Origin: Pirellulimonas nuda
GTDB taxonomy: Bacteria; Planctomycetota; Planctomycetia; Pirellulales; Lacipirellulaceae
Direction of reading: 5' to 3'
Length of the DNA: 64,000 nt
Assembly (NCBI RefSeq): GCF_007750855.1
Contig: NZ_CP036291.1
Coordinates: forward strand, 62,001 to 126,000
Shown: positions 5,121 through 51,952 of the stretch, in pieces
Position numbering within the stretch: position 1 is the first letter of the stretch
Layout: the number at the start of each line of letters is the position of its first letter
Program-made: the position numbers and the translations under genes
Notes under the pieces: model-generated
What the model was told of the DNA's origin: nothing
What the model saw: only the letters and a program-made list of their open reading frames with translations
Databases searched by the model: none

Positions 5121-5300
5121 GTTAACCACTGAGCCACTGAGGCTACAGAGAAGCATGGAGACGGCAAGAATGACCAATGACCAAGCCTAAACGACCAATG
5201 ACGCTTCCAATCGCTTGCGCGGATTGGTCATTTCGGCTTGGTCATTGGTCATTAACAGTTTCTCCGTCCGTCTCCGTGTTCTCTGCGGCTCTGTGGTTAA
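5121..5300. repeat. Nested double inverted repeat between divergent ftsH and dxr
   Basis: The 468-base space between ftsH (minus) and dxr (plus) holds two nested palindromes. The inner one is perfect: 5169-5187 (AATGACCAATGACCAAGCC) pairs with 5235-5253. The outer one is imperfect: GTTAACCACTGAGCCACTG at 5121 onward pairs with CTCTGCGGCTCTGTGGTTAA ending at 5300. The inner family recurs at 27498-27576 and the outer family at 6729-6955. Because both neighbours are transcribed away from it, it sits in promoter territory and cannot be a terminator for either. The rest of the gap (5301-5545) shows nothing recognisable. Confidence 0.85.
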
Positions 5301-45076: not shown

Positions 45077-45175
45077 GTGAGGAGTGAATGATGAGTCGTG
45101 AGTCGTGCGTCGCGGCCGCTCACCAATCGCCATTCACGATCCGCCAAACGCAATTCACGATTCACCAATCACAAC
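45077..45175. repeat. Quasi-tandem inverted repeat upstream of gltB
   Basis: The left part has GAGTGAGGAGTGAATGATG and GAGTCGTGAGTCGTG words; the right part has their complements, such as CCATTCACGAT, AATTCACGATTCAC and CAATCACAACTCACC. It fills most of the space between the LysR gene and gltB, ending 19 bases before the gltB ATG, so it could lie in the gltB leader. Confidence 0.75.
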
Positions 45176-45194
45176 TCACCACCGTAGGCCCGCC

Positions 45195-49850
<4,656 letters not shown>

Positions 49851-49855
49851 AAAAC

Positions 49856-50336
49856 CTCTCGCAGAGGCGCGGAGGCGCAGAGGGATGAGAGAGAAAGAGA
49901 AGGAGGGAGAGGGTGGAGGTTAATGAGATTACTGCGTCGATTGTGGATGCGGCGATTGCGATTCATCGGGAGGTTGGACCGGGGTTGTTAGAGTCGGTCT
50001 ACGAGATTGTCTTGGCAGATGAGTTAAGGAGACGCGGCCTTGATGTCCAGAGTCAGATTGGGGTGCCGATCGTGTTTCGTGGACGACAATTTGACCAAGG
50101 ATACCGCCTCGATCTACTTGTCAACGACATCGTGATTGTCGAGATCAAGTCCGTCGAAGAGATCAACAACGTCCACAAAAAGCAACTGCTCACGTACCTC
50201 CGCCTCACCCGCAAACCGGTCGGCCTGCTCCTCAATTTCAACGTCGAGTTGATGAAACAAGGCATCATTCGGATCGTTAATAACCACCAAGAATAGCCCC
50301 TCTCCCGACCTCTGCGTCTCCGCGCCTCTGCGAGAG
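49856..50336. mobile_element. Candidate palindrome-bounded element carrying a GxxExxY gene
   Basis: Left arm 49856-49883 and right arm 50309-50336 are reverse complements at 27 of 28 positions (CTCTCGCAGAGGCGCGGAG...). Between them lies just one gene, GxxExxY, of clearly lower GC than gltB and gltD. The element begins 5 bases after the gltB stop and ends 41 bases before gltD, so it splits an otherwise normal gltBD operon. A copy of the same arms without a gene is at 14054-14204. There is no transposase, and I did not find a target-site duplication by eye. Mobility is my inference. Confidence 0.6.
49913..50296 (+). CDS. GxxExxY-family PD-(D/E)XK nuclease-like protein
   Basis: A 127-residue protein of the GxxExxY family: GPGLLESVYEIVLADELRRRG carries the name-giving G-x-x-E-x-x-Y; then QSQIGVPIVFRGRQFDQGYRLDLLVNDIVIVEIKSVEEI contains the PD-(D/E)XK-like core with Asp and E-I-K; then KKQLLTYLRLTRKPVGLLLNFNVELMKQGIIRIVN closes the fold. 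Family members are widespread in planctomycetes and other environmental bacteria; no biological role is established. Start is GTG at 49913 with GGAGGGAG upstream. The whole gene sits inside an inverted repeat. Confidence 0.9.
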   Translation: MEVNEITASIVDAAIAIHREVGPGLLESVYEIVLADELRRRGLDVQSQIGVPIVFRGRQFDQGYRLDLLVNDIVIVEIKSVEEINNVHKKQLLTYLRLTRKPVGLLLNFNVELMKQGIIRIVNNHQE

Positions 50337-50377: not shown

Positions 50378-51952
50378 ATGGGCAAACCCACCGGCTTCAA
50401 AGAATTCGACCGCCAGGCCGTTCCCTACCGCAGCCCGGTTGAGCGCGCCAACGACTACTTGGAGATCTACACCCCGGCGCCCGACGAGCAGCTCAAGACC
50501 CAGGGCGCCCGCTGCATGGACTGCGGCGTGCCGTTCTGTCAGAGCAACTCGGGCTGCCCGGTGGACAACCTGATCCCGGAGTGGAACGACCTGGTCTATC
50601 AGGGGCGCTGGAAGGACGCGCTCGACCGGTTGCACAAGACGAACAACTTCCCGGAGTTCACCGGCCGGGCCTGCCCCGCGCCGTGCGAGGGCGCCTGCGT
50701 GCTGGGGATCACCAACCCGCCGGTGACGATCAAGAACATCGAGAACGCGATCATCGACAAGGGTTTCGAGGAGGGATGGGTCGTCCCCCAACCCCCCGAG
50801 GTCCGCACCGACCGCCGCGTGGCGATCGTCGGCTCCGGCCCGGCCGGCCTGGCCGCCGCGGCCCAGCTCAACCGCGCCGGGCACCGCGTGACCGTGTACG
50901 AGCGGGCCGACCGCATCGGCGGCCTGTGCATGTACGGCATCCCCAACATGAAGCTGGACAAGCACGTGGTCGAGCGGCGCGTAAACCTGCTGCGGGGCGA
51001 GGGGGTGACGTTCGTCACCGGCGTCCACGTCGGCAAGCAGGAAGACTTCCCCGCGGGGCACATGACGCAGATCATGCAAGAGCGCGGCCTGAAGATGAAG
51101 TTCGTCGACCCCCAGCACCTGGTAGACGAGTACGATGCGGTGCTGCTGGCCACGGGCGCCACCAAGAGCTTCGACCCCACCGCCCGCTGCACGGGCCGCG
51201 ACCTGGGGGGGATCCACCTGGCGATGGACTTCCTCACCCGCAACACCAAGAGCCTGCTCGACTCCGGCCTGGAAGACGGGCACGCGCTCTCGGCCAAGGG
51301 GCTGAACGTGATCGTCATCGGCGGCGGCGACACCGGCGCCGACTGCATCGGCACCTCGCTGCGCCACGGCGCCAAGAGCATCGTCAACTTTGAGGTGATG
51401 GCCAAACCCCCCGCCGAGCGGGCCGCCAACAACCCCTGGCCCGAGTGGCCGCGGGTGTTCCGGGTTGACTACTCCCACGCCGAGGTCGAGGCCAAGACGG
51501 GGCACGACCCGCGCTCGTACGAGGTGCTCACCAAGGAGTTCGTCGGCAAGGACGGGCGGGTGACCGGCGTCAAGACGGTCCGCCTGGACTGGACCCGGCC
51601 GACCCCCGGGGGCGCCCCGTTCACGGAGCTCGAGGGGAGCGAGACCGTCTGGCCCGCCGACCTGGTGCTGCTGGCGACCGGCTTTGTCGGGCCGGAGCTC
51701 GAGGTGGGCGAGATGCTGGGCCTGGAGACCGCCGAGCCGCGCCGCGGCTGGACCACCTTCAAGGCCGAGCACGGCCACTTCGCCACGAACGTCGAGGGGG
51801 TCTTCGCCGCGGGCGACTGCCGCCGCGGCCAGAGCCTAGTGGTGTGGGCGATCAACGAGGGCCGCGGCGCCGCGGCCGCCATCGACCACTACCTGATGGG
51901 CTATACTGAGCTGGCCGCGCCGGGGCTGAACCTGCCCCAGCAGGTGGTGTGA
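50378..51952 (+). CDS. gltD: Glutamate synthase small subunit
   Basis: A 524-residue FAD/4Fe-4S protein that passes electrons from NADPH to GltB. The N-terminal cluster-binding region has [22 protein letters not shown] and [14 protein letters not shown], followed by FAD-binding [14 protein letters not shown] (about 150) and NADPH-binding [13 protein letters not shown] (about 309), and [10 protein letters not shown] plus [26 protein letters not shown] at the end. ATG 50378 follows the palindrome by 41 bases. Confidence 0.97.

Follow-up and report, generated by a model that had tools for sequence, protein, structure and literature searches.

Caged GxxExxY nuclease-like genes suggest a hitherto unnoticed type of small selfish DNA

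We identified a single GxxExxY gene of Pirellulimonas nuda, lying between gltB and gltD and enclosed by short inverted arms, as what is probably an autonomous representative of a class of tiny elements, mobile or exchangeable, that extends across phyla, its nuclease recognising its own arms. The make-up of such a unit would, on balance, be one Cas4/RecB-like PD-(D/E)XK nuclease gene between inverted arms of about three direct 7-nt repeats. The core of these repeats is CRCNRAK generally and CGCNRAG in the window cassette (the window being the whole stretch of 64,000 nucleotides that was analysed). Across the genomes that we compared, gene and arms are found together in many phyla, and gene-less pairs of the same type are dispersed in those same genomes. 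The original prediction of a small mobile unit is supported by these comparisons insofar as fixed intergenic sites hold, lack or exchange gene and arms together, while movement is what we infer from the pattern. GxxExxY cages thereby suggest that a type of small selfish DNA has so far escaped notice.

The left arm of the window cassette (49856-49883, plus strand) consists of a CTCT leader followed by three 7-mers at an 8-nt period, namely CGCAGAG (49860-49866), CGCGGAG (49868-49874) and CGCAGAG (49876-49882). The right arm (50309-50336, minus strand) has the same build, with its three 7-mers of the form CGCNRAG on the minus strand within 50310-50332. The arms are 28 nt each, 96% complementary (27/28) and 425 nt apart, and the only ORF wholly inside them, among the ORFs of at least 80 aa that were listed, is the GxxExxY gene (PF13366, TIGR04256; 49913-50296, plus strand, 127 aa) with a GTG start; arms around a lone GxxExxY gene had been described from the letters alone. 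The gene is also AT-richer than its surroundings, as had been noticed, with a G+C content of 50.8% against 68.1% for the gltB ORF (glutamate synthase large subunit, 45105-49850, plus strand) and 69.7% for the gltD ORF (small subunit, 50378-51952, plus strand). Both neighbours are intact and on the same strand as the cassette gene, which is thus intergenic and not in an intron, an intein or a 23S rRNA gene; the product name of gltB is based on the earlier sequence note and on the conserved gltB-gltD adjacency in relatives. Normal adjacency of the two genes was confirmed in other families of the order, where eight readable genomes have a gap of 25-217 nt, and six of these a gap of 25-34 nt. By eye, no target-site duplication was obvious around the arms, and no near-identical genome supplied an exact empty site.

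The window protein matches TIGR04256 (3.6e-41, 140.2 bits, cut-off 35) and PF13366 (4.2e-41, 140.4 bits, cut-off 22) over nearly the whole of either model, and these are its only matches in NCBIfam and Pfam, with no known transposase domain among them. Neither model states a function. The G-x-x-E-x-x-Y and D...EIK motifs read from the translation lie at G24, E27, Y30, D67, E77 and K79; in an alignment of 62 sequences all of these are invariant except G24, which is nearly so. Q91 and Y95, nearly invariant as well, we take to recall the QxxxY motif of Cas4/RecB nucleases. The AF2 model is confident (pLDDT 94.6, pTM 0.88) and predicts a restriction-endonuclease-like fold of the PD-(D/E)XK nuclease superfamily, the nearest solved folds being Cas4 SSO0001 (Z 9.5) and a restriction-endonuclease-like protein (Z 8.4), both PD-(D/E)XK. 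Other fold matches are weaker (e.g. Hjc, Z 7.3) and lie in a range that possibly reflects only a common arrangement; matches with Z below 8 were not counted as evidence of kinship. Foldseek alone gave no match at E <=0.001 (best 0.0033, to Cas4 SSO0001), a sequence search gave no solved relative at E up to 1, defence-family profiles gave weak Cas4 matches only (E 0.0036 or worse) and PHROGs a single weak match (E 0.0072). The likeness to Cas4/RecB thus lies in the predicted fold and the weak profile matches, whereas the window protein has only 127 aa and no CRISPR or helicase partner in its neighbourhood; its partner appears to be the arms. GxxExxY genes occur in 96 of 199 sampled genomes of the phylum Planctomycetota and at no fewer than 574 places in the GTDB collection. 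Plasmids and phages were rejected as the usual vehicle: at E 1e-5 the window protein had matches in 7 of the 72,556 plasmid records and in none of the 50,697 phage records searched. One plasmid-typed record, from Bacteroides finegoldii (L414), holds a caged GxxExxY gene (2495-2869, inverted-repeat score 21) in the order radA, caged gene, gene of an FAD-dependent protein, all in one direction.

In its own genome the palindrome is tied to its gene only in part: the arms do cage the gene, as originally proposed, but they are not private to it. The 23-nt arm core has 88 matches in the 6.62-Mb genome (44 per strand, up to 3 mismatches), against 11 for a reversed control pattern, and these dispersed copies rule out a private palindrome of one gene. 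After exclusion of two shifted overlapping matches, 52 of the remaining 86 form 26 convergent (-/+) pairs, the cassette included; one pair is divergent and the rest are single. Many matches thus belong to gene-less inverted pairs. Pair spacers range from 12 to 427 nt and looked unrelated by eye in the 15 pairs that were read, so that the gene-less pairs of this genome do not seem to be plain copies of one unit. Two pairs (at about 1308323 and 5004869) are nested cages, with a second inverted pair of the AATGACCAATGACC type inside. A protein search found five GxxExxY genes in the genome (the family model counts six), and all five examined lie inside inverted arms that differ in sequence and share one grammar. 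One of them (L013, 610524-610844) has CACGGAT-type arms with a perfect 38-nt inverted match. Its arm type is found in 48 copies including its own two, with nine -/+ pairs including the cassette and no other order. Our search for dispersed arms covered the types of the window copy and of L013, and each of these two genes is matched by scattered copies of its own arm type. In the L013 protein the catalytic E is replaced by D (D-P-K), although the arms of this copy are perfect. Within the own genome, the arms of one pair were no more alike than arms across pairs (2.15 vs 2.12, p 0.62).

Cages are also common well beyond this genome. Our sample consisted of 80 GTDB loci (the best 80 of at least 574 by similarity to the window protein), 110 loci forming the best-scoring part of a phylum search over 199 genomes (one of which duplicates an own locus), the five own loci and five gltB-gltD loci. 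A first test compared the 300-nt flanks as inverted repeats, a score of at least 16 being taken as strong and four GTDB loci with flanks below 60 nt being excluded. Among the 196 testable rows 129 scored at least 16 and 150 at least 14, against 3 and 5 of 1363 control windows of equal geometry that were slid around the GxxExxY loci; the window copy scored 25. Once the duplicate was removed (L087, identical to L010), strong inverted arms remained in 128 of 195 loci. A second test required that runs of two or more 7-mers on the two sides face each other; it was positive in 140/195 loci and in 11/1326 control windows, while the unrelated gene RsfS gave 0/30 in both tests. As the original prediction expected of GxxExxY genes, most of those sampled are caged: 159 of the 195 have arms by either test and 36 by neither, the loci being non-independent best hits, eleven of them at or near one Sphingomonas site. 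Reverse-facing runs were present, additionally or instead, in 18 of these loci. Record titles in the GTDB sample name Verrucomicrobia, Lentisphaerae, Bacteroidetes, Acidobacteria, cyanobacteria, Desulfobacteraceae, Geobacter, Sphingomonas, Roseiflexus and Planctomycetota; neighbour genes vary across phyla, and the shared arm grammar is about three copies of CRCNRAK. Those passages of the open-access literature searched in which GxxExxY, PDDEXK_3 or PF13366 occurs mention no flanking repeats, and among the open-access papers listed on REPIN/RAYT, intervening sequences, MITEs and dispersed palindromes no title or opening of an abstract links GxxExxY with repeats. Six 15-mer arm strings were absent from the open-access literature searched.

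At gltB-gltD, the junction can be compared in the 24 genomes of the window's family (own included), with four unreadable there (G010, G013, G019, G022). A caged GxxExxY gene is present in the own genome and in G003, G005, G006, G014 and G023, and the contig of G020 ends inside such a gene. Arms with no gene are found in G011. Six of the 24 genomes (G002, G008, G009, G012, G015, G021) hold neither gene and have 51-315 nt at the junction. In four further genomes (G001, G004, G007, G018) arms of the AATGACCAATGACC type surround a four-helix-bundle gene (TIGR02436, assigned at 9.3e-15 for G004 and by eye for the other three). The two kinds of cassette alternate at the junction, and occupancy differs even within a genus (G006 vs G018; G014 vs G001). 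The loci at which the four-helix-bundle cassette replaces the GxxExxY cassette in these relatives are L049, L050, L051 and L053. Elsewhere in the window, at 5169-5253, lies a gene-less inverted pair of the other arm type (AATGACCAATGACCA; plus at 5169, minus at 5239); arms of this type enclose the four-helix-bundle genes that relatives have at gltB-gltD.

Four-helix-bundle genes are caged at other places too. Among 30 TIGR02436 loci (L264-L293) 15 scored at least 16, and their arms consist of other iterated units, such as GGTGTCA or AGGTTCT; two unrelated proteins thus share the same cage architecture with different grammars. Gene-less copies are not limited to the own genome either. Matches to the arm pattern were present in all 12 sphingomonad genomes, with 2 to 92 each (cassette arms included), and copies were nearer to the resident arms than to those of other genomes (2.31 vs 3.28 mismatches, permutation p 0.0005; 167 copies among the matches listed for 11 genomes, with 20 of G244 and 19 of G239, and G247 excluded). 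The own cassette ranks first for dispersed copies in only 2 of 11 of these genomes, and in G242 the majority of dispersed copies do not share the type of the resident cassette. Ten single pairs read in G244 have spacers of 91-93 nt with partial similarity. Some copies in that genome (L404 and others) are nested double cages whose inner pair is of a different type. Food for thought is whether, in a class of caged genes that spans phyla, the inverted arms of iterated 7-8-nt units are themselves the replicating entity, with unrelated small proteins (the Cas4/RecB-like nuclease and the four-helix-bundle protein) as alternative engines that have their own grammars and compete for the same intergenic sites; we regard this as a tentative reading, more doubtful than assured.

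In Sphingomonas, a hot spot between fabD and fabG allowed us to follow the cassette through many species. The order fabD, GxxExxY, fabG was confirmed by the annotation of a named record. Of 78 junctions readable from an 81-genome draw, 37 have a GxxExxY gene and 27 are empty, with no more than 9-43 nt; the remaining ones span 86-169 nt (11 junctions) or about 1.3 kb (3 junctions). Judged by eye, one junction of 86-169 nt (L371) keeps both arms and gene remnants, i.e. an internal deletion, two keep one end (L384, L400), six hold other palindromes and two were left unclassified. Loci with such other palindromic elements, by eye, are L367, L368 and L396-L399, in species that do not have the cassette at this junction. 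In 41 species with both arms anchored, arm distance was 1.71 edits within species and 5.38 between species, and none of 10,000 permutations was as low as the within-species value (excluded were L356 and L394, in each of which one arm escaped anchoring, together with L157 and three genomes that were repeats). Compared with the nearest relative that has another left arm, the own pair was closer in 38 species, further in 2 and tied in 1. Independently varying arms are thereby ruled out at fabD-fabG; the arms differ together between species, in line with the original prediction.

By these comparisons, gene and arms are exchanged as a block at fabD-fabG while the flanks stay, and this whole-block exchange is the main cause of the co-variation of arms within species. 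The flanks are at least 85% alike in 57 species pairs. Gene identity falls below 75% in 31 of these, with a mean arm distance of 6.2 and a fabG protein identity of 95%; the others are 14 intermediate pairs (arm distance 4.7) and 12 pairs with at least 85% gene identity (0.2). In 12 of 41 species, gene and flanks clearly point to different nearest relatives. Moreover, the partial rank correlation of gene and arms given the flanks is -0.42 (p 0.0005), and that of flanks and arms given the gene is -0.05, one species (L137) having been read in the wrong frame in both. In nine pairs with similar genes (dS 0.10-1.10, dN/dS 0.04-0.23), the arms differ at none of 52 sites in six pairs, at one site in two and at four in one. 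At such dS values arms free of constraint would be expected to differ at more sites, so the arm sequence looks selected.

Block exchange of this kind could also be the work of a homing-like selfish nuclease that cuts alleles with no cassette or with another arm type, whereupon repair copies the block in; movement would then be mainly allelic, at gltB-gltD and fabD-fabG, rather than transposition to new sites. The reuse of two junctions by many species, the replacement of the block with little change in the flanks and the 37 of 78 fabD-fabG junctions with a gene all fit this, and like homing endonuclease elements the cassette is a small nuclease gene at a fixed site. Nonetheless we hold it to be unlikely: in the own genome the five cassettes occupy five sites and many gene-less pairs lie elsewhere, and cassette neighbours vary across phyla. 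Unlike homing endonuclease elements, the cassette is found between genes and not within an intron or intein; it also has inverted arms and is accompanied by dispersed gene-less copies.

Another question regards whether the protein has anything to do with the spread of the arms. Typing the 7-mers of arms that score at least 16 labelled 115 loci. In 114 typed loci, base 7 is G in 94, T in 17 and A in 3, and on a quick tree of this protein of about 120 residues it needs 2 changes, the minimum for three states, whereas 300 shuffles averaged 19.1 and never fell below 15. The second base (CGC 67, CAC 43) needs 17 changes, compared with a mean of 34.6 and a minimum of 27. All T-type arms come from the phylum sample (0 of 80 GTDB loci); because they span 14 family codes, and because the own genome has both types, host lineage alone cannot explain the split. 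On this tree, then, arm type follows the GxxExxY protein subfamily. Arm counts follow the gene as well. The pattern of three 7-mers at an 8-nt period is present in 69 of 199 phylum genomes, and the gene occurs in 58 of these 69 and in 38 of the 130 pattern-negative genomes (Fisher p 5e-14, not corrected for relatedness). One genome with no GxxExxY match (G047; stated completeness 94%) has 26 matches to the arm pattern.

Both associations weigh against the view that other machinery, for instance an IS200/IS605 or REP-associated transposase, spreads the arms while GxxExxY is a passenger or has been domesticated, which seems to us quite improbable. What speaks for it are the 11 of 69 pattern-positive genomes that have gene-less arm pairs without a GxxExxY gene and the transposases at gltB-gltD in two relatives. 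In G016 the GxxExxY gene stops after about 24 residues and is followed by an IS200/IS605-family transposase (L064, 2462-2914; 79.2 bits, cut-off 55), whose match to the REP-associated model lies under that model's cut-off; in G017 (L060) a left arm is accompanied by a similar transposase, by eye. The G016 transposase, however, has its own, different palindromes (by eye).

In the reading that we prefer, in which the nuclease recognises the arms of its own cassette, it would bind their iterated 7-mers and cut at that place, probably once pairing of the arms has formed a hairpin or cruciform in the DNA. Repair of the cuts would excise, copy or swap the cassette, and by the same repair gene-less pairs would be excised, copied or swapped in trans. 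Expression may come from read-through, as most cassettes run the same way as the genes around them. A crude longest-ORF rule puts both neighbours in the same direction in 59 of 109 caged loci and both in the opposite one in 8, and 42 are mixed (nine fabD-fabG loci, the window copy, the five gltB-gltD loci and four further short-flank loci were excluded; L153 and L157 were retained). The same co-direction would also be expected if the arms paired in the transcript and the protein acted on RNA, the stem being processed in the manner of 23S rRNA intervening sequences, and gene-less pairs with short spacers could form strong hairpins. We consider this very improbable, given that the predicted fold is DNA-nuclease-like and that arm mismatches show no excess of sense-strand G-U (73, against 71 for the reverse), and by the latter the paired molecule fits DNA better than RNA. 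It is just as improbable that gene-less pairs are kept as two-way transcription terminators or insulators with the caged gene incidental: 14 such pairs in the own genome do have A-rich upstream (A 0.42) and T-rich downstream (T 0.41) flanks against a background of 0.16-0.17, but their neighbours are convergent in 5, divergent in 4 and of the same direction in 5 (crude ORF rule), i.e. with no preference for gene ends, and neither the cages nor the link of arms to subfamily would be explained.

Among known systems, the best reading by analogy is that the cassette works like RAYT-REPIN with an unrelated enzyme. REPINs are described as short palindromic repeats that are scattered in inverted pairs with spacers of varying length, alongside a low-copy matching gene (PMC3116915). 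Cassette arms are likewise dispersed as inverted pairs (26 convergent, 1 divergent), whereas RAYT is a Y1/HuH tyrosine transposase and the enzyme here is an unrelated putative PD-(D/E)XK nuclease encoded inside the arms, which are made of iterated 7-mers, in a unit that is swapped at fixed sites inside operons. REP repeats are described with a GTAG or CGTC tag at one end (PMC3733652); no such tag is seen in the window arm, which begins CTCTCGC and ends CAGAGG. With insertion sequences and MITEs the cassette shares a single gene between inverted ends and gene-less derivatives, as in the internal deletion at L371 that keeps its arms, and it differs from them in that no known transposase domain was identified and in that its ends vary strongly between copies. 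23S rRNA intervening sequences have complementary ends. The Coxiella-type sequence with an S23 ORF is a small single-ORF element that has been called selfish (PMC4990558). It differs from the cassette by its location in rRNA and by a protein unrelated to GxxExxY. A nearer parallel to it are the four-helix-bundle cassettes at gltB-gltD, since the TIGR02436 family is presumably linked to S23.

GxxExxY genes hereby gain a candidate DNA partner that can be tested in vitro. If the nuclease acts on the arms, it would be a single-protein engine, of a transposition type and with no known transposase domain, for a repeat family that crosses phyla, and many unexplained intergenic inverted repeats would be explained. 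Finally, if the arms are the replicating entity, GxxExxY would represent a new type of transposition enzyme with a single PD-(D/E)XK nuclease domain.
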